Virus record (IMG/VR): IMGVR_UViG_3300020732_000013
Coordinates: 1-62,896 of that record
Length of the DNA: 62,896 nt
From: a virus
Direction: 5' to 3' (one strand)
Shown: piece by piece, positions 1 to 50,694 of the stretch
Layout: each line of letters opens with the position of its first letter
Numbering within the stretch: the first letter of the stretch is position 1
Notes under the pieces: model-generated
What the model was told of the DNA's origin: nothing
Databases searched by the model: none
Seen by the model: only the letters and a program-made list of their open reading frames with translations
Made by a program: the position numbers and the translations under genes

Positions 1-3000
1 TATCGGTACCACCCCCGCCACATTCTTTGCACAGCATGAAGTCAATAACCTTGAATCTCAGGCTCGGGCGCAAGAAGCCGACATCGCTGCGGGTAAGAAG
101 CCGCGCGAAACATCGACAGGCAAATCGCTCGTTGCCTCTGCGGGTCAAACCGCATTTGACGTGTTTGGTGGCAAACTCTTTACGTCAATTCCCGGCGTTA
201 ACAAGATGATGGGCAAAATGCCCATTCTGCGTGATCTTGTTGGCGAGAGTGCTGAACCGCTTGAAGGTGAGACGGCTGAACAAGCGGCAGCGCGCGCTTC
301 TAAAGAAGCACAAGATAAAATCATTCAGGCTTCTCAAGACGGCAAACTCACATATAAAAATGGTATAGCCAAAGGCGTCGCTAAAGGCGTGGGCTTTGCC
401 GTGCCTCAGTCGCTTGCCAGTACGATCTTGGATCGTTGGCAGTCGGGTGAATCGAACGACGTCTTTAATGACCCCGATGCTGCTCACGCATGGAGAGACT
501 CTCTTCTGCAAGGTGCTGTCTTAGGCATGACGCTTGGCGTCGGCGAAGGCGCGTTCCATACCCGTGCGGAACGTAAACAGGCTGCGGATCTTATTGGGCA
601 GCGCAAGGCTGAAGAAAAAGCCGCTGCTGAAGCGGCGGCTGATGCGGAGAAGAAAATAACGGAGACTCCCAAGACTGCGGATCCGTTACTCGGTCAGGCG
701 CGCGATGTCATTATGGCTACAGGCGACGCTACTCGTGCCGACCATATTGCTGCTCTTATGGCGCAGGTTAAGGACGAGGACGGTAATCCTATCCCGCACT
801 CAAAAGCGACGTCATTGTTTAATGCGTTGACAAAGAAGTCTGCGGGAGACATGCAAGTCAAATTCTCTAAGCCCGATCCGCAAACGGGCGTACTCTCCAT
901 TAAGAACAAACTTACGGGAGAAGAGGAAGCACCAACGGCTGCACCGCACACGACCGAAGATCTTCTGGCTGAACCCGCAGCCGTTGCGGAAACTCATGTC
1001 GATGATCCTACGAGTCACAAAGGCACAGTGGATCCGGACAACACTCTTGCTCAAGAAGACGCAGAAGGAAAAAACGCAGATGACGTCGGCGCATTGGCTC
1101 CGGGCGAGGCAACTACGCCTCCGCACCAAACTGTCCAAGACGAAGGAGCAGTCCGTGGAAAAACCGATACTGAAGTTTCGGGTTCCGAAGGAGGAGACAC
1201 TGGAGATAACACAGGAGGGACTGGAGGAGGCGCTAAGTTGCCTACACTTTCAGATCCCGCCGACGAGCAGCGAATTGGACGCGTTGACAGTGAGGGAGTG
1301 GATAATACTAAGCCAAGTACTCCAACAACTGATGAAGGAACGGCAGGTGAGCAGCCTCCAGTAGCGTCTGAACCCCCGCCTATCATTCCTCCAATTGAGA
1401 CGCCGCCCGTTGCCGACCCGCCGCCTAAACCTGCGGAAGTCACGCCTGTCCACGATAAAGGTCAGATTGAGTCTGATCTTAGAGCAATGGCTGACGCTAA
1501 TGGGAACATTAAGGGATCCGATGCTGCGGAGTATGTTCGCACGCACTCTCCGAATGCGTTTCACCGATACATTGCCGGACTTGTCGGTAAGATGGTTGGG
1601 CACTTTGAACGTGCCGGATTCAAAATCAACGTTCGTTTTGAAGACCCAAATAACCCCCATACCTCCAGTTCAAGTATAAAGTCCGGGTCTAGTGGCGTTA
1701 CAAGTTCGGATTTACGCGATAGCGGAACTGACGCTAATACAATCACTATTCTTCTTTCTGGTAACAATCTTCGTACGGCTAAACGCCCTGCCAGATTTAG
1801 GGACGGCACGCCTACAACTATCGAAGCATATCCGGAACAAGCCAAAAACCCTGACACCATTGCCGGACATGACACGATTCTGCATGAATTGATCCACGCG
1901 GTAACGACTCATGCGATTGAGTACGGCGCGTACTACGCTCAGAACAACGCGGATATACCGGCATCACGTCGGTCCAAGTCATATCTAGTTGATGCCTATA
2001 ACGACTTGGCTGCGCTCCATAAACATGTTGTGGATCGCATTAATAAGATTCCTGACAACAAATTATCACCTGTTGAAAAGCGGCTTAAAAACTTTAGCAA
2101 CATGATGGATAACCCGCACGAGTTGCTTGCGTGGGGATTGTCGGACCCGGAGGCTGCGGAATGGCTATCGACTGTACCGTACAAGTCTGGCGGCAAACTC
2201 ACCAACGCGTGGCGCGCTATCGTCGATACAGTGGCGAAAATCCTTGGCGTTGATCCTGCTAAAAAGAACGCACTGAACGAATTGCTGCGAGTCAGCGAGA
2301 AGTACATTGGTAAAGACTCAACCAAGCAAGTGCTTGCGTTGCGTAAGAAGTATTCTAAAGAACCGACCTATCTAACGGACGTTACTTTTGCGCAAAGCAA
2401 AGTAGGGGCCGGTGAACGGCATTCAGATCATTTGTTTGATCAGACTGCGCTTGGGGAAGCCGCTAATCAAACAAGCGGCAGCAGAGAAAAACTCATCAAT
2501 ATGCCTATTGATGATTTTCTTAGCATGGCGCGCAGTTTCAGTGATAACGCAAACGGCAAACCTTCAGAAGGAAAGTTACGTTCAATTAGGAATGCTCTTA
2601 GCGAAACGGGAAAACTTCCAACCGGCGTGGGCGGTCGTATTCCATTTCTAAAATTTCGTAACACCGAACATGGTTGGGCCGAGGTCACAGGACACGAAGG
2701 GCGGCACCGTGCCCTTGCTCTTAAGGAGCAGGGCTACACTCACATGCCTGTTGTGCTGGAAAGCGATAGCGGTCACACGATCCGTTGGGGAAAACAAGAT
2801 AACCCCGATCACATGGATTACGTCCAAAACTGGCCGCACACTTTGTTTGGTGAACGCGATAGCGCAGATTCAACTGGGCATGGGAATAATCGAATCGACT
2901 TCCCAGTTACGCGAGAAGCCGCAACTGAGGAGCGTAGAGTGCGCGCGCAGCGTAAGACTGCGCCCAAAGCCCCAACGACTCCGGAAGAGTGGGAGCGTCT

Positions 3001-6000
3001 TCGCGCCGAAGAACTAGAGGCCAAGTCCCTTAAGGGTAAGGTCAAACAGAGTATCATGGACCTGTGGAAAGGTGCCAAGAGCGGTGCGTACGACAAATTG
3101 GTCACGCTGTTCCAGAATGAATGGCGTCCGCTTAAGTTGCTTGAACATATGCGGGATCTTGCTAACTCCAACGTCATTGGCGGGGACAAGGCAACCAACA
3201 TCTACACCAATCTGATTGGCGCAATGGATCGTGCATCAAGCCTGATGGCAATGCACTTGAATCCGTTGTTCCAAGAAGTGCGGAATCAGATTCGTTCTTT
3301 CGCTAAGAATAATGATCTGTCATGGAACGAAGCGTTGGCCCGCCTTGACGGAATGCGTGTCTCGCTACACGAGCCTGAGCGCCGTCGTACGGTCTTTGTC
3401 CGCGAAGCACCATTGAAGACTGCACCACGGGCATATCAAGACGCCAACGGCAATACCGTCATGATGTCTCCGGCGGATCGTCGACAGCGCATCCTCGACA
3501 AAATCGCTGATGCCAATGTCTCGGCTGCGGACAAAGAGAAACTGGAACAAGCCCTGCACAAGATGGTCTTTGAGAAAGATGCTAAGGGCAACTTTGTCAA
3601 TCTGGATGAGAATGGTCATAGCCCAACGAAAGGCAAGGGGCCGAAGTCCATCGACGAGAATTCACCGGAGTACAACGTTGTCGGTGGATACAACTCGGAC
3701 TTCATCAAGCAACTCCGCCAAGGGTACGATGACGCTACCGCCAATGGTGCGAATCCAGAAATCAACCGCATCTTTGATCTGTTAAAAGAGATCGAAGCGA
3801 AGGGGCGTGAGTTCGACCGTGCTGCCAATTACTGGACGAACTACACGGACGGTATCGTTGCCGCCTACGGGTGGAAAAACTACGTGCCGTTCAAAGGTCT
3901 TGGTGGGCAGGAAGCGAAGTTCGAATTGAACGGCAAATACAAGGGTGTCAGTGGCGAACACGCTGACGCGCCGAACGCGTTCGAAGCCCGTGAATCTGAG
4001 GCCGACAACAGTCTTCTCCAAACGATGGTCGACGCCTCCCGTGCCGCAGGGCGCGCAGGACGTAAGGATGTCACCAAGATTCTGAAGAACCTCATCAACG
4101 CCAAAGATGGCATGGGGATCAACGGCAAGTTGGTGAAGACTCTGACCGCGCAAGAGCGCTACGAAAACAAAGTCGACATGAGTGAGTACAAGAAGAGGGG
4201 CAACTTCTTCCACTACATGCCGAACGGCGACATCGAAGTGTACTCACTGACCAAAGATCCTGAGATTCTTGACGCGATTCGCCGACCGTTCGAAGAGGCT
4301 GGCCCAGTGCAGCGCGTCTTAAACGGGCTTACGGGCTTCATGGGTAAACAGCACACCCGGTATAACCTCGCGTTCGCTCCCATGAACTATGTGAAGCATA
4401 CGTTATCTAACGCCTATAACTTGGCGGGACATGCTGGGTTAGGTACGGCGGTAGACTATCTTGGGGCGACCGTTGGTAACACGGGGAACATGCTCAAGGC
4501 GGCGACGTTCGCCAAGCACCTTGTCTCCGGCGACGCTGATGCCATCGACAAGATGCGGAACAGTTCCGACCCGTTCATCCGCAACATGGTCGAGTACATG
4601 GAAGAGGGCGGACGCACGACATACGGTCAGACGTACTCCATCACCTCCAAGATGGACGACATTAAGAAGACTGTTGGACGAGGCAACGTTCTGCACAACG
4701 CGCAGCAGATCGCGCATTACTTCGATGCCTACCAAGACATGTTTGACCTCACGAGTCGTACCTCTGCGTACGGCGTGATCAAACAGAAACTGATGCAAGA
4801 AGGCATGACGGAACCGCAAGCGCGAGAACTCGCAGCGGCACAGGCCAAGGAACTGACCAACTATCGCTTGATCGGTAAGTACGGTCGCTCGGCGGGGGGA
4901 CTGTTCATGTTCTTCCGTCCTGCGGCATCGTCGGCGGTTGCTGCCATCGATACGCTGCGCCCTGCGTTCCAGTCCGTGGAGTCTGTCCTCGCCAAGTATC
5001 CTGAGAGCGTTCTTAAGGATCCGGCGAAGAAACAGGCGATCATCGACAACCACGTCAAGTTGCAGCAGAACACTAAGCGCTTGGCAGTCTCATTGGTGGG
5101 TGCCGGAGCCGCGCTCTACACGATGGCATTCTTGGCATCGGGCAACGACGAGCAGGGGCGTAACCGCGTCGCGTCGGATGATAAGGCGCGGTGGACTCGC
5201 TATATGCGTCTGCCGATTTTGGGTGATGCAGCGAACGGGTTCTTCCAGTTGCCGTGGGGCTTCGGCCTTGGTGGTCTGGGCGCGCTTGGTGCGCAACTTG
5301 CGGCCTTGTCGTACGGACATCAAAAACCCAGCGAAGCGGCGGGCAACATTATTAACATTGCCGCAGAATCTTTCTTGCCGATCACCCCGTCGCACATCAA
5401 TCCGACCGACAATTTGTTCGCGTTCATGCTCGACACGGTCACGCCTAGCGGCTTGCGTCCGTGGGTAGAGTACGCCATGAACCGCGACGATATGGGCAAT
5501 GAAATCTTTAACGCACGGCAAGGCAAGTACAGCGATGTGTTTACCGGCGGTGACCACATCCCGCAAGGCTATAAAGACATTGCTCGTATGCTCTATCGGT
5601 TGACGGACTACAAGTTAGAAGTTAGCCCGAACACCTTGTACTTCTTCGCGACGCACTACTTCGACGCCATTGGGCGCATTGCCAACATGGGTTATGACCT
5701 GAAGTTGATGGCGGATGGGAACAAGCACTTCGACTACAAACACGACCTCCCGCTTACGGATAGTTTCGTGGGTACGTACTCCAACGTGGACGCTCGGCAG
5801 TGGCAAGAGATCCAGAAACAATTGGATGAGAAGTCCCGAACGTTAAACACGTTGAAGAAGACGGACTCGGATGCTTACGTGAAATATATGATGGAGCATC
5901 CAACGGAGCAGTTCTTAGTCAACAATTATCATCATATGGCGAATGCTCAGTTAAAAGAGTTAGCGGCACGACGTTTGTCCATTCAATTGGCACCGGATGA

Positions 6001-6112
6001 ACAGATACCGCCATTGCAGCGCGAAGAGATCGTTAAGGAGATCCGTTTACATGAGAACGCGATCAAATCCAATCTCATCGCGCGATACCATGAAATGGGT
6101 ATCGATCCTTAA
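1..6112 (+). CDS. Large injected 'polyvalent' virion protein, C-terminal part (start lies beyond the left edge)
   Basis: The frame is open from base 2 to TAA 6110-6112, about 2036 residues. The first start-like codon (GTG 161) has no Shine-Dalgarno and sits in unbroken coding sequence, so the gene enters from outside. Seen in order: Ala/Glu-rich helical part; Pro/Asp/Thr-rich linker (about 950-1450); zinc-peptidase signature HELIH (1883-1897) followed by NPHELLAW (about 2110-2136); a module with GHEGRHRAL (about 2687-2723) that may be ParB/Srx-like; and a very long helical C-terminal half ending in an FFRP-containing segment. Large virion proteins with this build are known from podovirus-type phages and are thought to be injected with the DNA. 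The N-terminal piece is probably the partial gene at 62509. Function beyond virion/injection is inferred. Confidence 0.85.
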   Translation, partial: IGTTPATFFAQHEVNNLESQARAQEADIAAGKKPRETSTGKSLVASAGQTAFDVFGGKLFTSIPGVNKMMGKMPILRDLVGESAEPLEGETAEQAAARASKEAQDKIIQASQDGKLTYKNGIAKGVAKGVGFAVPQSLASTILDRWQSGESNDVFNDPDAAHAWRDSLLQGAVLGMTLGVGEGAFHTRAERKQAADLIGQRKAEEKAAAEAAADAEKKITETPKTADPLLGQARDVIMATGDATRADHIAALMAQVKDEDGNPIPHSKATSLFNALTKKSAGDMQVKFSKPDPQTGVLSIKNKLTGEEEAPTAAPHTTEDLLAEPAAVAETHVDDPTSHKGTVDPDNTLAQEDAEGKNADDVGALAPGEATTPPHQTVQDEGAVRGKTDTEVSGSEGGDTGDNTGGTGGGAKLPTLSDPADEQRIGRVDSEGVDNTKPSTPTTDEGTAGEQPPVASEPPPIIPPIETPPVADPPPKPAEVTPVHDKGQIESDLRAMADANGNIKGSDAAEYVRTHSPNAFHRYIAGLVGKMVGHFERAGFKINVRFEDPNNPHTSSSSIKSGSSGVTSSDLRDSGTDANTITILLSGNNLRTAKRPARFRDGTPTTIEAYPEQAKNPDTIAGHDTILHELIHAVTTHAIEYGAYYAQNNADIPASRRSKSYLVDAYNDLAALHKHVVDRINKIPDNKLSPVEKRLKNFSNMMDNPHELLAWGLSDPEAAEWLSTVPYKSGGKLTNAWRAIVDTVAKILGVDPAKKNALNELLRVSEKYIGKDSTKQVLALRKKYSKEPTYLTDVTFAQSKVGAGERHSDHLFDQTALGEAANQTSGSREKLINMPIDDFLSMARSFSDNANGKPSEGKLRSIRNALSETGKLPTGVGGRIPFLKFRNTEHGWAEVTGHEGRHRALALKEQGYTHMPVVLESDSGHTIRWGKQDNPDHMDYVQNWPHTLFGERDSADSTGHGNNRIDFPVTREAATEERRVRAQRKTAPKAPTTPEEWERLRAEELEAKSLKGKVKQSIMDLWKGAKSGAYDKLVTLFQNEWRPLKLLEHMRDLANSNVIGGDKATNIYTNLIGAMDRASSLMAMHLNPLFQEVRNQIRSFAKNNDLSWNEALARLDGMRVSLHEPERRRTVFVREAPLKTAPRAYQDANGNTVMMSPADRRQRILDKIADANVSAADKEKLEQALHKMVFEKDAKGNFVNLDENGHSPTKGKGPKSIDENSPEYNVVGGYNSDFIKQLRQGYDDATANGANPEINRIFDLLKEIEAKGREFDRAANYWTNYTDGIVAAYGWKNYVPFKGLGGQEAKFELNGKYKGVSGEHADAPNAFEARESEADNSLLQTMVDASRAAGRAGRKDVTKILKNLINAKDGMGINGKLVKTLTAQERYENKVDMSEYKKRGNFFHYMPNGDIEVYSLTKDPEILDAIRRPFEEAGPVQRVLNGLTGFMGKQHTRYNLAFAPMNYVKHTLSNAYNLAGHAGLGTAVDYLGATVGNTGNMLKAATFAKHLVSGDADAIDKMRNSSDPFIRNMVEYMEEGGRTTYGQTYSITSKMDDIKKTVGRGNVLHNAQQIAHYFDAYQDMFDLTSRTSAYGVIKQKLMQEGMTEPQARELAAAQAKELTNYRLIGKYGRSAGGLFMFFRPAASSAVAAIDTLRPAFQSVESVLAKYPESVLKDPAKKQAIIDNHVKLQQNTKRLAVSLVGAGAALYTMAFLASGNDEQGRNRVASDDKARWTRYMRLPILGDAANGFFQLPWGFGLGGLGALGAQLAALSYGHQKPSEAAGNIINIAAESFLPITPSHINPTDNLFAFMLDTVTPSGLRPWVEYAMNRDDMGNEIFNARQGKYSDVFTGGDHIPQGYKDIARMLYRLTDYKLEVSPNTLYFFATHYFDAIGRIANMGYDLKLMADGNKHFDYKHDLPLTDSFVGTYSNVDARQWQEIQKQLDEKSRTLNTLKKTDSDAYVKYMMEHPTEQFLVNNYHHMANAQLKELAARRLSIQLAPDEQIPPLQREEIVKEIRLHENAIKSNLIARYHEMGIDP

Positions 6113-19111: not shown

Positions 19112-20413
19112 TTACTTGAACTTGACTGACTTGCCGACAGGCGGCTTAAAAGAATCATTACCCTTGACAACCCAAAGGGCCGGTATGCGGGCATCCCATT
19201 TCACGTCCGGTTCGACGTACCCATCGGTGAACACGACCATGCAATCGGCGGTCATGCGCTGCGCAGTCAGGTAGTCGCTGACGCAGCCCACGCGCGTACC
19301 GCCGCCGCCCTGCGGCTTGAGGACATCGGCGAGGTTGCTATAGTTGTCGTACAGCACCTGCTCACCGTGCACGTCGGTGTCCCACCACAACACGACCACC
19401 TCCTCCGGACGCACCTGCTCACAAATCAATGCCAGTGATCCGCACACCCGGGAGATGTCATCCTGACGTATCGACCCCGACGTATCGATGGCGACGATCA
19501 GACGACCGATGCGCTCAGAGATTGTCGATGGCCTATACAAATCATCGGCGAGACGGCGAACGTTAAACCGACGGAACGAATACTCATCGCGCCCAGACAT
19601 CGATTGCGTAACGAACTCCTGCATGACGTCGCGATAGTCTTCCTCCGGCTCCAACAGTTCCTTGATCGCGCGCGGCACATCAACGCCCATCGCACCTGCG
19701 ATCAGCGCGGACTGCTGAATGGCCTGATCGATCTTGGCCTCCTGCTCCTTGATGTCATCGCCCTTGGCACCGCTGACCTTGCTCCAGTCGTGCTTGTCGC
19801 GCGGTGTGGTGTCGTACTGCTTGCCACCGATCTCGACCGACGATGACGGCTCCGACTGCCCCGGCTTAGGTTGCCCCGCGCCTTGGTTCTGGCCCTGACC
19901 CTTCTTGCCCGGGGCCGGATTGCCCTGCTGTTTGCCGTCCTTGTCCTGCCCCGTCTTCAAGAAGTTATATACCTGACGCACAGACCAATTGCGGAACTGC
20001 GGGTCGAGCAGCGGGTTCGGCCCCCACTTCACGAACGACGGATCCTGCATCCGAATCTGTTCGATCCAATCGTTGACCACATAGTCCGCCGCAGCGTTGG
20101 TCAACTGCGGGTCTTCCTTCCACAGGTCACGGTGACGTGGCAGGTGCTTGAGTACGACATGGAACGTCTCGTGAAGTACGACCTCGACGATCTGCTCAAT
20201 GCTCAGGCTGTTCAGGTACTCCATCGCGTAATACTTGTTTACGCCATCGGTGTACGCCGTGGGGCATCCCGACTCAGCCGCAGTCACAACCTTCGACTCG
20301 CCCAACATCAACACACCTGCGTACAGGTACGTCAACTTGTGCTTCATGATGCGCAAGTGCGCGCGCTTGAGATTGGTCTCGGCTTGCTTCATCAGATCAA
20401 CGGCGGCGGTCAT
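19112..20413 (-). CDS. VWA-like metallopeptidase-domain protein (DUF2201 type), partner of the MoxR ATPase
   Basis: 433 residues. N-terminal zinc-peptidase-like motif LHETFH (H81, E82, H85) with a second-shell NAAADYVVNDW segment (about 107-117) fits the DUF2201 N-terminal domain. A Gly/Pro/Gln-rich linker spans about 160-215. The C-terminal VWA-like domain has the metal-site motif AIDTSGSI (near 306) and FTDGYVEPD (near 410). In bacteria such proteins pair with MoxR AAA+ ATPases as metal-dependent remodelling systems; the ATPase lies 178 bases upstream here. Start behind GGAG, coupled to the 60-residue gene. Confidence 0.88.
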   Translation of the reverse strand: MTAAVDLMKQAETNLKRAHLRIMKHKLTYLYAGVLMLGESKVVTAAESGCPTAYTDGVNKYYAMEYLNSLSIEQIVEVVLHETFHVVLKHLPRHRDLWKEDPQLTNAAADYVVNDWIEQIRMQDPSFVKWGPNPLLDPQFRNWSVRQVYNFLKTGQDKDGKQQGNPAPGKKGQGQNQGAGQPKPGQSEPSSSVEIGGKQYDTTPRDKHDWSKVSGAKGDDIKEQEAKIDQAIQQSALIAGAMGVDVPRAIKELLEPEEDYRDVMQEFVTQSMSGRDEYSFRRFNVRRLADDLYRPSTISERIGRLIVAIDTSGSIRQDDISRVCGSLALICEQVRPEEVVVLWWDTDVHGEQVLYDNYSNLADVLKPQGGGGTRVGCVSDYLTAQRMTADCMVVFTDGYVEPDVKWDARIPALWVVKGNDSFKPPVGKSVKFK

Positions 20414-20592
20414 AGCACCAACTCCTTCTGTTCGACTTTGATCTTGAACCCCAGAGCCTGAATGGTCTTGAGATCCATACGCTTCAGCGTCTTGGTTCCA
20501 GTCAACTGGGTGAAACGGAAAGCGGTCTCGTTGACGGGGTAGAAATGTTCTACCCCATACACACTCCGCGACTCGATGATTACTGTGTCCAT
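20410..20592 (-). CDS. 60-residue protein between MoxR and VWA genes
   Basis: Start overlaps the MoxR stop (TAATG) and stop overlaps the VWA gene start (ATGA). FYPVNETAFRFTQLTGTKTLKRMDLKTIQALGFKI looks like a small folded domain of a type found in other phages. No function recognised; the tight coupling implies it belongs to the MoxR/VWA operon. Confidence 0.75.
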   Translation of the reverse strand: MDTVIIESRSVYGVEHFYPVNETAFRFTQLTGTKTLKRMDLKTIQALGFKIKVEQKELVL

Positions 20593-21668
20593 TACATCAA
20601 CACCTCGTAGTTGTCCTCAGACCACTTGGCGATCTGCGCATTGCGCATCGCCATGCGAGCGGTGCGTGGCGACTGCACAAGCATCGTGAAGAACACACCC
20701 TGAATCTCAATCGACTGGATGCGATTGGCCCACTGCATGAAGCCCGACAACTCGTCCTGCGTCTCCAACATGTCGACCGCATTGAACAGGGTCATCAGCA
20801 ACGCACCTGCGTTGTCCGGCACCGCGACGGTCGGATCCTTGAGGATCTTCTCGACCGGGATGATGTCCTTCTCCATCTGGATGAACGTCGACATCATCTG
20901 ACCCGCAGCGTCACCCAACAGGCCGTGCAGACCGTCCGTGACCAGATCGTCCCCAAGGAACGCGCGATCCCGAATGACCTCGTCAGCCAACGCGAGCGAG
21001 CGAGGCGACACGAACTGCGTCTGACCTGCACGGCGCGGGTTGAAGATGTACGGGTTATCGTCCTGACCCTCGTCGAGGTACGACGCCATCATGCGAGTGT
21101 TCATCGCCACGCAAGAGCGCGTGATGACGCTGATGCCGTTCTCACCTGCCCACAGGTTCCACTCCTTGGCGGTGCACTTGCGCATCTTGAGCCGCATCAA
21201 GCGGTTGGCAGAGTGCGCTTCGATGGTGTCGTTCACACCGTCCGACGCATGGTTGGACGTCGCGAACACGATGCTCCCGGGCGGCAGCGCCACGTCGCCA
21301 ATGATTCTCTCAAGCGTCAAGCGAGTGAACATCTTCTTGAGCAAGCGGTCAGTCTTCAGATACTCGTCGAGCATCAGGACGATGGCCTTGCCCGATCCCA
21401 ACTTGAGCCGCGCGCTGATGTACGTGACCAGTGCCTTCTCGTCATGGACGGGGATGTCCATCGCGAGCGCGCCCTCAAGGATCGTGGGGCAGTCGAGGTA
21501 TACGTACTCGTACGCATCGCCCATCTGCTTCTCAAGCGCCTTGAGGATGCTCGACTTGCCTGTCCCCGGCTCGCCTTCGATGAGGACGGTGACGCGCTTG
21601 CCGATGCGCTGAATCATCTTGATGCAACCCGCCATCGACGTGAAACGGGTGAACTTAACGGTACTCAT
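20592..21668 (-). CDS. MoxR-like AAA+ ATPase
   Basis: 358 residues. Walker A GEPGTGKSS (32-40), Walker B IVLMLDEYLK (97-105), sensor 1 FATSNH (135-140), and an arginine-finger candidate in SANRLMRLKM mark a MoxR/RavA-type AAA+ module, followed by a helical C-terminal region. AGGAG precedes the ATG. MoxR proteins use ATP to remodel partners that carry VWA domains, and such a partner is encoded two genes downstream. The phage target is unknown. Confidence 0.9.
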   Translation of the reverse strand: MSTVKFTRFTSMAGCIKMIQRIGKRVTVLIEGEPGTGKSSILKALEKQMGDAYEYVYLDCPTILEGALAMDIPVHDEKALVTYISARLKLGSGKAIVLMLDEYLKTDRLLKKMFTRLTLERIIGDVALPPGSIVFATSNHASDGVNDTIEAHSANRLMRLKMRKCTAKEWNLWAGENGISVITRSCVAMNTRMMASYLDEGQDDNPYIFNPRRAGQTQFVSPRSLALADEVIRDRAFLGDDLVTDGLHGLLGDAAGQMMSTFIQMEKDIIPVEKILKDPTVAVPDNAGALLMTLFNAVDMLETQDELSGFMQWANRIQSIEIQGVFFTMLVQSPRTARMAMRNAQIAKWSEDNYEVLM

Positions 21669-42868: not shown

Positions 42869-43173
42869 TGACTAACAAATGGCAGGATTTCAAATTCTTC
42901 GGATGGGATGAAGATCCCATCGGGAAGTACAAGCAACCGGAGCCGAATCCGCGTACGGGTCGCGCCGGTCAGCAGGGATACCCTGTTGATGAGGTGGACA
43001 TGACCGGTACCAAGACCTACGGTCGTTGGATTCGTCCGCTCAATGGCGATAAGAAAGAGCGGATGGAGATTCGCGGCTGCAAAAACACGCAGCGTGGTAA
43101 GCGTTTTTACGAAGACGATCAAGATCGTAAGGCTCCGCGTACCAAGCCGCGTAAGCAGGTTGAGAACGGCTAA
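42868..43173 (+). CDS. 101-residue basic structural-cluster protein
   Basis: Start overlaps the upstream stop (TAATG), and its end overlaps the next ATG. The N-terminal part is aromatic (WQDFKFFGWDEDP), the middle has GRWIRPLNGDKKERMEI, and the C-terminal third is basic and probably disordered (RKAPRTKPRKQ). No family recognised. Confidence 0.7.
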   Translation: MTNKWQDFKFFGWDEDPIGKYKQPEPNPRTGRAGQQGYPVDEVDMTGTKTYGRWIRPLNGDKKERMEIRGCKNTQRGKRFYEDDQDRKAPRTKPRKQVENG

Positions 43174-43841
43174 TGGCTATCTCCTATACGGCGGGCACGT
43201 ACGGTACGAACAATAATCTCTGGCAGATGGTGCAGGATTACACGCAGAACACCGAACCCTCGTTCGTATTCAACATCCCGACGTTTGTCGAGGAAGCCGA
43301 GGAACGTATCTACAATACGGTCCAGATTCCGGCTTTGCGTAAGAGCGTCACGGGCAGTGTCACGACGGGGATCCCTTACCTTGGGCTTCCCGCTGATTAC
43401 CTTGCGCCGTTTGCAATGTCGGTGATTGATCCTATAACTGCCGCACAGTCCTTCATGTTGAACAAAGACGTGGAGTTCATTCGGCAGTCTTTCCCTACGC
43501 CTACGTCTATTGGACAACCGACTCATTACGCGCAGTTCGATACCGTGTCGTTTATTCTAGGTCCAACGCCAGATCAGACGTACACTGTCGAACTGCATTA
43601 CTATTACTACCCGCCCAGTATTGTGACGGCAAGTAATTCGTGGGTCGGTACTAATGCGTCCAACGTCCTTTTGTACGGTACGCTTCGCGAAGCGTACCTC
43701 TACATGAAGGGCGAACAAGACATGGTGCAGTACTACGAACAGAAGTATCAGGAAGGCATTCAGTTGCTCAAGGATCTTGCTGAAGGCAAGGGTCGCCGTG
43801 ATACGTATCGTAGTGGTCAGATTCGGATTAACCCGACATGA
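43173..43841 (+). CDS. Neck/tail adaptor protein
   Basis: 222 residues. NLWQMVQDYTQNTEPSF, FVEEAEERIYNTVQIPALRK, a beta segment (GLPADYLAPFAMSV), YTVELHYYYYPPSI, and a helical end (GTLREAYLYMKGEQDMVQYYEQKYQEG) match the phage adaptor type that links head connector and tail. It probably stacks with the 40572 product. Confidence 0.8.
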   Translation: MAISYTAGTYGTNNNLWQMVQDYTQNTEPSFVFNIPTFVEEAEERIYNTVQIPALRKSVTGSVTTGIPYLGLPADYLAPFAMSVIDPITAAQSFMLNKDVEFIRQSFPTPTSIGQPTHYAQFDTVSFILGPTPDQTYTVELHYYYYPPSIVTASNSWVGTNASNVLLYGTLREAYLYMKGEQDMVQYYEQKYQEGIQLLKDLAEGKGRRDTYRSGQIRINPT

Positions 43842-45130: not shown

Positions 45131-45151
45131 TCGGCGATTGTCGATCTGGTG

Positions 45152-45172
45152 GGGGCAGCATTATGCTGCCCC
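45152..45172 (+). terminator. Hairpin after the 195-residue gene, weak terminator
   Basis: GGGGCAGCA and TGCTGCCCC around TTA, followed by TACTTCTGTTG rather than a clean T-run. It may slow polymerase or protect the upstream message. Confidence 0.45.
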
Positions 45173-45199
45173 TACTTCTGTTGTGTTTGGAGTTAAGCC

Positions 45200-46495
45200 A
45201 TGCTGTTACTGACTAGCACGTCGGATCTTGTCACCATCACAACCGGATCGGCTGGGACGGTACTTGTCCACACCTCATGGGTGGACAACGCATCCGGTAC
45301 GATTACGCCGGGGCGTACAGACACGCCTTCAATTACGACAGCGACTACAACCACTATTGTCGCAGCCCCTGCGGCGAGTACGCAGCGTAACGTCAAGAAG
45401 ATTTCGGTCTTCAACAGTAGCGCTACCGTATCTAACTTGATCACCATCACGCACACGGATGGTACGAACCCTATTACGCTCTTCTCCGCAACACTTGCTC
45501 CTAGCGAATCGGTGGAGATGGCAGACAGCGGCAACTTCCAATACTTCGATGCGACGGGCAAGCCGTATCAGACTACGGTATCGGGTGGTGCAGGTGCGTT
45601 CACGACCCTAACGGCTTCCAGTACCGTCACATTATCCCCCGCTAGCGCAAACGTCACGATCAGCCCTACCGGCACGGGCACGGTAACGATTAGCCCTGCG
45701 AGTACAGTGGCGATCAGTCCTACAGGCGCTTTGACGATTAACCCGACAGCAGCATCTACGCTTAATAACTTGTCTGTTGGTGCTACAACCCCGTCTACCG
45801 GTAGATTTACGTTTCTCGGCGCAGGTGTTGCGTCTTCTACGTCGTCTTACGTTACGGCAGCGGCGGGTACGGCGACTGTCGCGCCAATGGTTGTCACGGG
45901 TGGTACTAACCTGACCACAGCAGCGGCAGGTGCATTTGAGAACGATGCGATCTGTCCGTACTTCACGACCAATACGACGGATGGTCGAGCGATCATTTCG
46001 GCAATTCAGCAGTTCCGTTTAACGGCAAACGGTACAGCGATTTCTACGGTAAATAACTTTTTCGGCACTACGTCGAACATATCTTTAGTGTCTGGCGCGT
46101 ACTACGAAATTGATATCGAAATGTATTTTACGTGGACATATTCGACAGGTACCGGCATTTTGACATGGAACTTCACTAACTCCGCTGCGCCGACTTCTAT
46201 GAACATTCACGGTGAGTGGACTCCGGTGGGTGGTATCAACTCGACCACGGGTGCGTCGAATCTTTGCGTTGATATAGTGAACAGCACTTCTGCCGCGCAG
46301 ACTTTGACTACCGGCGCTATGACAACTACGAACACTCAATACGCGCGATTTAGAATTTTCTTGCATAACGGTACTGGAACTAGTTTGAAGATTCAGGTCA
46401 CACCCATAACGGGTTCTACCGTTACGCCTCTAGCGGGATCACGTTGGACTTCTCGTCGTATTCCGACGGGTAACACGGGCACGTTCGCCACGTAA
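45200..46495 (+). CDS. Fibre-like virion protein, 431 residues
   Basis: GGAG precedes the ATG. The N-terminal domain (SDLVTITTGSAGTVLVHTSWVD, KKISVFNSSATVSNLITI) is followed by a shaft of short Ser/Thr/Pro repeats (TISPTGTGTV, TISPASTVAISP, LTINPTAAST; about 145-195) like trimeric fibre shafts. The C-terminal 200 residues form a globular beta tip (YYEIDIEMYFTWTY, MNIHGEWTPVGG). Probably part of a host-recognition or whisker fibre. Confidence 0.75.
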   Translation: MLLLTSTSDLVTITTGSAGTVLVHTSWVDNASGTITPGRTDTPSITTATTTTIVAAPAASTQRNVKKISVFNSSATVSNLITITHTDGTNPITLFSATLAPSESVEMADSGNFQYFDATGKPYQTTVSGGAGAFTTLTASSTVTLSPASANVTISPTGTGTVTISPASTVAISPTGALTINPTAASTLNNLSVGATTPSTGRFTFLGAGVASSTSSYVTAAAGTATVAPMVVTGGTNLTTAAAGAFENDAICPYFTTNTTDGRAIISAIQQFRLTANGTAISTVNNFFGTTSNISLVSGAYYEIDIEMYFTWTYSTGTGILTWNFTNSAAPTSMNIHGEWTPVGGINSTTGASNLCVDIVNSTSAAQTLTTGAMTTTNTQYARFRIFLHNGTGTSLKIQVTPITGSTVTPLAGSRWTSRRIPTGNTGTFAT

Positions 46496-46504
46496 GGAAC
46501 CGAC

Positions 46505-49222
46505 GTGGCAAACCCTGTCGGTATATTTGATCCGGAGTTATCGCAAACCGAATGGTTTGACGTTACAAACGTCATCCAAGGTTGGTTTGATGCGGATCTC
46601 GTGTATACCGGCGGGGTCGTTGTCCTACCCGCCGCGCTTCCGGATGATCCGTTCGATATATTCGATCAGGATCAAGCCTACGCGGCTAATGACGCAGACA
46701 CTACGGATCTGATTGTCTCTACGACATTAAATCCAACAATCCCGCAAGCACCCTACTTTATTGGCGATGATATTGTCGTTGCCGATTGGTGGGAGGACGC
46801 GGATGATCCGACGGTCATCGATGCGGAGTGGTCTGGTCCTGTAGTACCCAATGCCCCGCCTCCATTAGTCGAGGATATTTGGGATTGGGATGAACATGCA
46901 GATGAAGATTGGTATTTAGATCAAGAATTATCGTTCCTAGCATTTAAGCCCCCACCTATCGATGACTCGTGGGATTGGCATGAAGAAGTAGAAGATGATT
47001 GGAACGACGATCAGAATCCGACAAATTCTTTAGCCCCTTCGTTAACTCTCAATGATGAATGGGAGTGGTACGAAGAGATTGATGACGCTTGGGAAGCGTT
47101 CATTGATCCGAAAGAACAATGGTTACTGGACGGCCTCTATAAGGTTGAGACTTATCAACTATCCGCTACGAATACGGGCGGCTCTTTTACAGAGTATGTC
47201 GGATTCCGTTGCGTTGTCGCACAGATAACGACGTACGGTCCGGGCGGTGGCGGTGCCCTCAATAATGCGTTGTATGCGACAGGTGGCAGTGCAGGATCTA
47301 CTGTCACAGGATTCGTATTACTTTCAGGGTTAGGTACTGAGTCTTTCTCAGGTACGCTACCTCCGGGTGGCGCGGCTGCGACGCTTTACCCTAGTAACGG
47401 ACAAGACGGCGGTGCGGATACAAACACGCTGCTGACATATACCGATTCGTCCAGTGTAACGCATTCGCCCATCATGATTGGGCGATATGGGTTCGGTGGA
47501 CAGGCGGGTCCGACTGCTGCGCCTCCAACAGGGGCAGTGGCACTTCCAGCGGATGTCAATCTAACTGTTGTTGTTTCGCCCATTTACTACAACGGTGGCG
47601 CAGGACAACTGGGTGGATACAACACGGCAGTTCCTCCCGTGCCGCTGGGTGGTCGCGGCGGTTCTTCGATAGCAGAAGATTCTGCGGGTTCTCCAACTGA
47701 GAAGCCCGATCATAACTTCGCTGTACCTACGACCAATCTAGGTGACGCGGGTGGCCCCGGCGGTGGCGGCGCGGGTATTGTCGATCTAACGTCTGCGACG
47801 CTTCAAGCGGGTGTGGGCGGTGACGGCGCAGTCGTTATTGTTCTTTGGTACAACTTCCCTGCAAACCTCTTCGTCATTTACGAAGATGCGTGGAATTGGT
47901 TTGGCGATAACGATAATACCGAAGACAACTGGGAATATTACATCGACACCGAAGTTACTCTTACGAGTAACAGCGCTATTCCTAATTATCTTCTGTGTCT
48001 TGAAGACGCATGGGATTGGAACGGGGACAACGACACCGAGGACAACTGGGAATACTACATCGACACCGAAGTTACTCTTACGAGTAACAGTTATGTACCC
48101 AATAGGGCCTACATTATTGAGGATGCGTGGGACTGGAACGGAGACAACGACGATTCAGAAGATTTCTGGATGGAGGAAGAGGCTCCACCCATCCCGCCTA
48201 CAAGCCCGTATTTCATCGAAGATCCGTGGAATTGGGATGAGATCGATGAAGAAGATCTTTGGTGGATTGACGAACTTCCCGTCCCACCATTGCTCAATCT
48301 CATTGAAGATCCTTGGAACTGGGACGAGACCGACGAGGAGGACTTCTGGCAAGAGGAGCAGCAGCCTGTTGGTCCTAATGCCCCACCGTCTATAGAAGAC
48401 GTGTGGGATTGGTCGGGTGATTTGGATGATGCAGAAGACTTTTGGATGGAGGAGGAACAGCCCTCCGCCCCAGTACTCCTGCCTTATTTCATCGAAGATC
48501 CGTGGAATTGGGACGAGACGGATGAAGAAGACCTTTGGTGGGTTGATGAACCCGTTGGACCAAACTATATTTTCTTGATCGTCGAAGACGCATGGAACTG
48601 GAATGAGTCTGAGGAAGAAGACTTCTGGCAGGAAGAGCAGCAGCCTGTCGGCTTAAACGGACCTATTCTTATTGAGGATGCATGGGACTGGAACGGTGAC
48701 GGAGATGATGCGGAAGACTTCTGGATGGAGGAGTCGAACCCCACCATACCTGATTATGTCCCCGCCGCGCCTTTGGGATCCCCTGATGATTGGTATTGGG
48801 ACGAGGAAGTCGTTGAGGACGATTGGTATTGGAGCGATTCGGACCGTTCGGTTTACCCCGTTACCAAGTTCCAAGTCGATACGTTAAGCGTCAACCCTCC
48901 GGCGCAGACAACGACCGTCGCGTCTATCGGGACGGTCACCATCGCAATCGTCAGCAATATCGGAATTGTTGTCACCGGCCTTACCGCATATGCTAGAATA
49001 AGTCAAGTCAATATCTGGGGTGACATTGACGATAACCAGAATCCAAATTGGGTACCGGTTGACGAAAGTAGCCCTACGCCTCCGACGTGGACTCCTGTCA
49101 GTGAAACTTCTTCTGACCCAGTGTGGACACCGGTTAATGAGACAAGTACAACTCCTGTTACGTGGACGCCGATAGATAATTCGTCGCTCGTATCCCCCAA
49201 CTGGAAACCCGTTAAGGAATAG
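46505..49222 (+). CDS. Acidic tryptophan-repeat virion protein with inserted Gly-rich domain
   Basis: 905 residues from a GTG start behind AAGGAA. Thirteen clear copies of a unit close to ED.W.W....D.EDFW.EE, three before (about 120-200) and ten after (about 459-790) an inserted Gly-rich domain (about 222-450; PGGGGALNNALYATGG, GGPGGGGAG) like fibre-tip adhesins. The last 70 residues hold five NWVPV/WTPV repeats. Hand count gives 55 Trp. Two adjacent units share an identical 33-bp DNA stretch (47941-47973 and 48058-48090), indicating recent duplication. It sits among fibre genes; no family recognised. Confidence 0.8.
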   Translation: MANPVGIFDPELSQTEWFDVTNVIQGWFDADLVYTGGVVVLPAALPDDPFDIFDQDQAYAANDADTTDLIVSTTLNPTIPQAPYFIGDDIVVADWWEDADDPTVIDAEWSGPVVPNAPPPLVEDIWDWDEHADEDWYLDQELSFLAFKPPPIDDSWDWHEEVEDDWNDDQNPTNSLAPSLTLNDEWEWYEEIDDAWEAFIDPKEQWLLDGLYKVETYQLSATNTGGSFTEYVGFRCVVAQITTYGPGGGGALNNALYATGGSAGSTVTGFVLLSGLGTESFSGTLPPGGAAATLYPSNGQDGGADTNTLLTYTDSSSVTHSPIMIGRYGFGGQAGPTAAPPTGAVALPADVNLTVVVSPIYYNGGAGQLGGYNTAVPPVPLGGRGGSSIAEDSAGSPTEKPDHNFAVPTTNLGDAGGPGGGGAGIVDLTSATLQAGVGGDGAVVIVLWYNFPANLFVIYEDAWNWFGDNDNTEDNWEYYIDTEVTLTSNSAIPNYLLCLEDAWDWNGDNDTEDNWEYYIDTEVTLTSNSYVPNRAYIIEDAWDWNGDNDDSEDFWMEEEAPPIPPTSPYFIEDPWNWDEIDEEDLWWIDELPVPPLLNLIEDPWNWDETDEEDFWQEEQQPVGPNAPPSIEDVWDWSGDLDDAEDFWMEEEQPSAPVLLPYFIEDPWNWDETDEEDLWWVDEPVGPNYIFLIVEDAWNWNESEEEDFWQEEQQPVGLNGPILIEDAWDWNGDGDDAEDFWMEESNPTIPDYVPAAPLGSPDDWYWDEEVVEDDWYWSDSDRSVYPVTKFQVDTLSVNPPAQTTTVASIGTVTIAIVSNIGIVVTGLTAYARISQVNIWGDIDDNQNPNWVPVDESSPTPPTWTPVSETSSDPVWTPVNETSTTPVTWTPIDNSSLVSPNWKPVKE

Positions 49223-49224
49223 CC

Positions 49225-50694
49225 ATGTCTAGTACGTATACCTCTAACCTTGCGATCCAGTTGATGGGTACGGGCGATCAGTCCGGCGCATGGGGTGCGA
49301 CAACCAATTCCAACTTGCAGTACCTAGAAGAAGGCATTACGGGATACCTGAGTTACGCGGTCACGGCATCCAATGCGGTTACTTTGCAGTTGGGACAGGC
49401 GAGCGACCCGTCGCCCTCCGCTCGAAATATGATCGTCAATTTGACCAACGGTGGGGCTTCTACAGCCGTCACCATGACGGTTCCCGGTACGGCGTCCAAG
49501 TTGTACTTCATTTGGAACCAGACGGGGCAACAGGTCACGGTGCAAGGTTCGACGCCTACGTCAAACACTGTGGTTCTTCCTAGCGGTGCGCAGACGGTCG
49601 TGTTCTGCGACGGCGCAAACAATATCTATCCGGCGTTGGGTGCGTTGAGTCTTACGAGCCTTACCGTCTCTACGTTAACGGCGAGTACGTCGATATCCGG
49701 CGGTACGGTATCCGGTACGACAATCACAGCATCAACGCAGTTCTCCGGCCCCGGTACGGGACTGACGGGCACGGCTTCAGGTCTATCGATTGGCGGAAAC
49801 GCTGCCACGGCAACTACTGCTACGACAGCGACTTCAGCGACCACGGCGACCACGGCGACCAACGTTTCGGGCGGTACGGCGACGCTGACGGGCACGAGTA
49901 CGACCAACACGTACAACATCGGCTATCTTGAAGTCCCGCAGAACGCCAACCCGACGCTGACCACTGATACGTATGCGACTGTGGCTTCAGACAGTGGCAA
50001 ACACATTTACTACTCGGGCAGTTCGACGTTCAGTTCGACAAGCGGCGCGTCAACGGCATCTACGGTGTCTATCACGTCTGTAGCGTCTAGCGGTGGTGGT
50101 ACCCGAACGCAGTTTAACTTCACGACCCCCGGCTTCACGTTTGCTACGGGCGCGGTCGTTACGCTTACAAGTATGACTAATACAGCCTATAACGGCACGT
50201 ATACGGTCTTTAGTGCAACGTCCACTTCAGTTGTTCTTACGGTAGCGTACCAAGGATCGACGTCTGTAACAGGTACGTTGAACTACTGCCTCATAACGAT
50301 TGGCGGCACGGTGACGGGTACGCTGTATCAGTACCAAGGGCTATCGGGTACGGGGTACTCTAACGGTACGTACATTTCTGCGAGACAGAGCGGTACAGGC
50401 GGCGCGGGTACGTATCATATTTACCCGCTTCAGACGGTTACTACTACGACTGTTCTTGGTGGTCCCATCATTTCGGTGACTACCGGTATCTACAATACAG
50501 GTACGGTACTGACCATTGTTAATGACGGTAGTACAGCGGCTCCTTTGTCTATCTATTCAACCGACACGGTTTTTGGTGCGGGTACTGGTTACGTCAACAC
50601 TAGCGGTGTTCACGTACTTTCCCAATACGGTCAAGTCACCCTGCTGAAAGTCGGCTCGACTCGTTGGCAACTTAGCGGCGCGGGTGTCGTCTAA
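49225..50694 (+). CDS. Tail fibre protein
   Basis: 489 residues. The start (YTSNLAIQLMGTGDQSGAWG, then NLQYLEEGITG) is the common virion-attachment segment of phage tail fibres. A shaft with ATTATTATSATTATTATN (about 190-212) and TVSTLTASTSISGGTVSG repeats follows, then Thr/Gly modules (about 270-400). The C-terminus (GYVNTSGVHVLSQYGQVTLL) looks like a trimerising tip. Likely host adsorption. Confidence 0.85.
   Translation: MSSTYTSNLAIQLMGTGDQSGAWGATTNSNLQYLEEGITGYLSYAVTASNAVTLQLGQASDPSPSARNMIVNLTNGGASTAVTMTVPGTASKLYFIWNQTGQQVTVQGSTPTSNTVVLPSGAQTVVFCDGANNIYPALGALSLTSLTVSTLTASTSISGGTVSGTTITASTQFSGPGTGLTGTASGLSIGGNAATATTATTATSATTATTATNVSGGTATLTGTSTTNTYNIGYLEVPQNANPTLTTDTYATVASDSGKHIYYSGSSTFSSTSGASTASTVSITSVASSGGGTRTQFNFTTPGFTFATGAVVTLTSMTNTAYNGTYTVFSATSTSVVLTVAYQGSTSVTGTLNYCLITIGGTVTGTLYQYQGLSGTGYSNGTYISARQSGTGGAGTYHIYPLQTVTTTTVLGGPIISVTTGIYNTGTVLTIVNDGSTAAPLSIYSTDTVFGAGTGYVNTSGVHVLSQYGQVTLLKVGSTRWQLSGAGVV

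Follow-up and report, generated by a model that had tools for sequence, protein, structure and literature searches.

An acidic tryptophan-repeat protein in the tail-fiber slot of a podovirus-like phage carries an array that recurs in unrelated phages

What role could a protein of 905 residues with 55 Trp and a net charge of about −167 play in a phage? The gene lies at 46505–49222 of the window, by which we mean the whole 62,896-nt stretch of viral DNA analyzed here, and is read from the plus strand, as are its features given below. It is a single open frame with a GTG start, and an AAGGAA that reads like a ribosome-binding site stands 5 nt ahead of it (46494–46499). An earlier reading made from the sequence alone had counted the residues and the Trp by hand and had noted dense Asp and Glu; these counts are borne out, with 106 Asp and 74 Glu (Asp+Glu = 180) vs 13 Lys+Arg, and the computed pI is 4.05. 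From N- to C-terminus the protein consists of an acidic leader (residues 1–86, 46505–46762, with only two Trp), a degenerate unit, three repeat units, a Gly-rich domain, ten further units, a VTGL-type region, and five W.P[VI] repeats. The position of the gene between the adaptor and lysis genes suggests that the product is a virion protein. Between two late genes farther upstream, a strong hairpin at 45148–45176 (13 pairs, 8 of them G-C) is followed by a T-rich stretch, and it is a possible terminator ahead of the operon that contains the repeat gene.

A 45.9-kb contig from a relative spans the two ends of the window (62896 to 1), so the window appears to be a genome of ∼62.9 kb that is complete or nearly so and has been opened at a different, arbitrary point. 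The genome encodes a terminase, a portal, a major head protein (phrog_371), an SU10-type adaptor (43173–43841, plus strand; PF24175, E 5e-24), an endolysin, a phrog_3287 structural protein, and a family A DNA polymerase; no tRNA genes were found in positions 1–62896. A ranking by the phrog_3287 protein puts DSL-LC04 first among named phages, followed by cyanophages such as Pag-Yong1, phage 023Pt_psg01, and pelagiphage HTVC023P, all at 31–38% identity. The phage group is podovirus-like with an SU10-type adaptor, and DSL-LC04 and HTVC023P are named relatives. Elsewhere in the window, positions 161–6112 encode a protein of 1983 aa that lacks a PHROG match and contains a large polyvalent protein associated domain 38 (LPD38, E 5e-12), and the minus strand at 19112–21668 encodes a putative metallopeptidase/VWA-like protein (DUF2201_N, DUF2201) that adjoins an AAA ATPase, together a MoxR/VWA-like pair.

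The acidic-Trp units number thirteen and are split 3+10 around the Gly-rich domain, as had been read from the sequence, with the thirteenth being degenerate. Array 1 (residues 119–205, 46859–47119) has units starting at residues 123, 153, and 183, and array 2 (residues 454–782, 47864–48850) has units starting at 460, 500, 539, 572, 601, 631, 664, 694, and 724, with the degenerate unit at 761. The repeat is regular, as had been claimed, and the earlier unit length of ∼25–39 residues gives way to a measured start-to-start spacing of 29–40 residues. Ahead of array 1, the further degenerate unit (residues 87–118, 46763–46858, DDIVVADWWEDADDPTVIDAEWSGPVVPNAPP, containing WSGPVVPNAPP) is, by alignment, common to L083 and L225/L247. 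The strict motif [DE][DE].W.W occurs 12 times in the protein, vs a mean of 0.12 and a maximum of 3 in 2000 composition shuffles. In the later part of array 2 the units follow a higher-order order A-B-C-A-B-C-A with a period of ∼279 bp, in which 70-bp parts are 90% identical, and the type A units contain DWNGDGDDAED.

The repeat had been described as apparently new, a claim that a strong match to a known repeat family or a disrupted frame in related phages would have removed. By sequence and by profile, the acidic-Trp repeat has no match in Pfam, PHROG, NCBIfam, or the PDB, and the frame is intact in L002 and L083. INPHARED searched by tblastn with the window protein and those of L172, L083, and L228 yielded no match, although the low-complexity filter of BLAST may hide some. 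Among bacterial genomes searched by DNA pattern, 41 stretches were inspected and none holds such an array, the pattern being strict enough that it could miss some; plasmids searched with L172 gave no match, and literature term searches found no paper on an acidic-Trp repeat. WDW/WEW-repeat tape-measure-like proteins (L174, L176, L224, L226, and L238) match the DNA patterns without dense acidic pairs and were set aside. As far as the searched libraries and papers show, the repeat family underlying the array appears to be new. The Gly-rich domain (residues 215–452, 47147–47860) resembles PF21722 Gly_rich_2, which aligns to residues 225–446 over most of the profile (E 4e-4; 20.8 bits vs a curated cutoff of 24.3); the L083 relative scores 36.6, above the cutoff. 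This likeness is limited to the Gly-rich domain and does not include the arrays.

The sequence-only reading had raised the possibilities that the W-x-W and acidic pairs bind Ca2+ or stack on sugars, and had linked repeat turnover to host-range evolution. We considered whether the arrays fold on divalent cations, with the acidic pairs coordinating Ca2+, Trp packing inside, and the units stacking into a stiff rod of the fiber-stalk kind. The regular spacing and the strict retention of Trp and acidic pairs would suit such a rod, and by eye the DWNGDGDDAED of the type A units resembles the DxNGDGxxxAxD-like loops of EF-hands or dockerins. However, the spelling is one residue off and is missing from most units, and the window protein matches no EF-hand, dockerin, or RTX profile of Pfam at E ≤ 1, and none in NCBIfam. 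We regard a cation-folded rod as unlikely. On a charge-hydropathy plot, which takes no account of bound cations, the arrays lie far on the extended side (H 0.39–0.40 vs a boundary of 0.52). Two AlphaFold models, with pLDDT values of 25 and 57, are uninformative.

The charge-hydropathy position would also fit arrays that are plain spacers, namely, disordered acidic linkers with no binding role in which the Trp pattern persists through unit copying only. Copying does occur, and unit number and linkers are variable, both of which such linkers would allow. Nevertheless, the window and L083 proteins are 42% identical, and over the arrays pS is 0.71–0.81 and pN is 0.30–0.35; for the unit cores of the window protein compared with one another, pS is 0.98 and pN is 0.20, so that synonymous sites are saturated while the core is kept. 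Because pN lies well below pS in both comparisons, the units are maintained as protein by purifying selection. The ED-x-W-x-W core is furthermore constant across distant lineages, a constancy that copying confined to one gene leaves unexplained. We accordingly give the plain-spacer account only a small chance.

A sign of such copying can be seen between two near-identical genomes. The window and L002 are 99.8% identical over 12.5 kb, and they differ at 18 positions in the 905-aa gene; 13 of the 18 fall within 37 bp (47887–47923), where the L002 unit has the sequence of the next unit and is 3 nt shorter. The simplest reading of this tract would be gene conversion between neighboring units in the L002 lineage, and divergence in the window lineage is less likely. 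The sequence-only reading had argued for active repeat turnover, which this conversion-like tract supports; its evidence, an identical stretch in two adjacent units, is present in the units starting at 460 and 500 (47939–47973 and 48056–48090), at a length of 35 rather than 33 bp. In a crude test of concerted evolution, the nearest unit came from the same protein in 39 of 62 cases.

The gene lies directly upstream of a tail-fiber-like gene (49225–50694, plus strand) whose N-terminus, GTGDQSGAWGATTNSNL, marks the slot, with a 3-nt gap to 49225. The N-terminal matches of this GTGDQSGxWG gene are annotated as tail protein, tail fiber, or tail spike in HTVC023P, CRP-901, and Pag-Yong1. A gene holds the same position in 44 related loci, retrieved using the adaptor and phrog_3287 proteins as queries, among which a few short entries may be other genes; 39 of the 44 slot genes have two or more Trp among the final 60 residues, in forms such as DSQTPNWTPV, W.P[VI], and NQNPNW. 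The window protein ends likewise in five W.P[VI] repeats (49025–49219), beginning at W849, W862, W874, W887, and W900. The five short WTPV repeats of the earlier reading thus stand, but not as part of the novelty, since related phages carry the same conserved end on other repeat bodies.

What varies is the body. In the phage group of the window the slot-gene bodies are usually of the VTGVxATG or SESATASD type, or others; in L005, L016, L041, L089, L090, and L116, the slot is filled by two other repeat families, of VTGVxATGxxGxVxV and SESATASD types. Two proteins annotated as hypothetical, DSL-LC04 WJZ48131.1 (376 aa) and HTVC023P gp68 (QGZ17697.1, 226 aa), resemble the window protein in standing directly before a GTGDQ-type tail-fiber gene and in joining a repeat body to a Trp-repeat C-terminus; they differ in being shorter and in having VTGV-type bodies, and that of DSL-LC04 has no Pfam or PHROG match. 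The window has acidic-Trp arrays in place of a VTGV- or SESA-type body, with a single VTGL-type unit (VTGLTAYARISQVNIWGDI; VTGLTAY-type) left before the C-terminus in the region 48857–49024, as judged by eye from its likeness to the repeat bodies of related slot genes. As read from these sequences, the slot protein combines a constant Trp-repeat C-terminus with a body that differs by lineage, and the window gene marks a body variant among the repeat proteins of the tail-fiber slot. In the adaptor tree the window and L083, both with the acidic-Trp body, form one clade (100/99), and its sister L005 has a different body. The tree fits one switch to the acidic-Trp body in the window/L083 lineage, on an older C-terminus, and does not indicate the source of the body. 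Host-recognition islands and hypervariable regions have been described in general for pelagiphages (PMC7029224; PMC10504331), and we found no mention of the tail-fiber slot in this literature.

The extreme acidity (pI 4.05, charge about −167) might alternatively be that of a DNA mimic or an internal protein that leaves the particle along with the genome and inhibits the DNA-binding enzymes of the host. Regular Trp would be unnecessary for such a role, and the tail-fiber slot, the Gly-rich domain, and a C-terminus also present on slot proteins with bodies other than acidic arrays all speak against it. We consider a DNA mimic very improbable.

The profile search with the repeat unit that had been proposed as a check was run, and it found the same unit in unrelated phage contigs. 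The unit HMM and tandem-unit DNA patterns together located arrays in ∼8 other phage contigs of several unrelated types (L083, L172, L275, L241/L221, L228, L247, L171, and L236); L236 and L275 are weak by the unit HMM (E 2e-4 and 0.02) and clear to the eye. The claim that the repeat was undescribed holds in that no described family matched, but the array is also present in other phage lineages. The leading unit of the window recurs in L247 (41% over 148 aa, E 4e-17). The array proteins of L172, L275, L241, L228, L247, L171, and L236 have the same unit by HMM and, like the window, arrays beside globular domains; the arrays flank globular domains in the window, L083, L172, and L275. The C-termini in the unrelated contigs differ from that of the window and include coiled coil in L172 and L275. 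A second, shorter acidic-aromatic repeat protein of 345 aa with YFGEDAELLDE-type units is encoded at L254 1051–2088, in the genome of L241. In a bacterial contig, L198 (a Verrucomicrobiia MAG), the DNA pattern picked out tandem EDAWDWEEDPMDWG repeats at 3611–4789 on the minus strand; the unit is shorter and different, and is perhaps convergent with that of the phages.

Where neighbors were read, the array genes of L172, L241, L228, and L247 belong to the head module and do not stand beside a tail fiber: in L247 the gene lies between portal and capsid, in L172 near the capsid genes, and in L241 and L228 ahead of a DUF2213 head-maturation protease and the capsid. These structural clusters raise the question of whether the array binds some other phage protein multivalently, in assembly or in anchoring, through ED-x-W-x-W as a short motif and has no host target, and a conserved motif on varying linkers is what such a ligand might show. 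Yet the major head proteins of the carriers belong to different PHROGs (phrog_371 in the window; phrog_3437, phrog_267, and phrog_264 in others), so that no virion partner common to all of them is apparent and a capsid-specific partner is less likely, and in most relatives of the window the protein in this slot has no array. We hold a phage-protein ligand to be rather improbable. Since the array is present in phages with unrelated head proteins, it behaves, at the level of sequence, as a portable module.

The reading we prefer, to which we assign a probability of roughly 45%, is that the 905-aa protein is an accessory surface adhesin with extended acidic-Trp arms, a Gly-rich head, a C-terminal anchor, and a partner outside the virion. 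The C-terminus would fix the slot protein onto the tail apparatus, and the strongly charged arrays would serve as extended arms, in keeping with their charge-hydropathy position, that project the Gly-rich domain outward. The repeated ED-x-W-x-W may then make many weak contacts with a target outside the virion, for example, the host envelope or its polymers; we place the target outside given that phages whose head proteins are unrelated use one and the same motif. In favor of an adhesin we count the tail-fiber neighbor, the slot with its constant end, the arrays flanking globular domains, and the purifying selection on the core motif. Unit conversion and block duplication would alter the arms over time, possibly with an effect on host range. 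Against an adhesin we count that strict Trp conservation is unusual for a plain spacer, and the presence of the array gene in the head module of L172, L241, L228, and L247 means that the attachment site there must differ. A broader proposal, which we make tentatively and with some doubt, is that ED-x-W-x-W arrays form a hitherto undescribed class of repeat and serve as a portable, multivalent module for adhesion. Unrelated tailed phages would build this module into proteins of the head or the tail, and its recombination within the gene would alter avidity or reach.

These results define an apparently undescribed repeat family that spans several unrelated phage lineages and a slot in aquatic podovirus-like phages where differing repeat bodies sit on a constant C-terminus. 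They also capture a conversion-like event in a pair of near-identical genomes. Should the slot protein prove to be an adhesin, the slot would provide a concrete site for studying change in host recognition outside the classical fiber tip.
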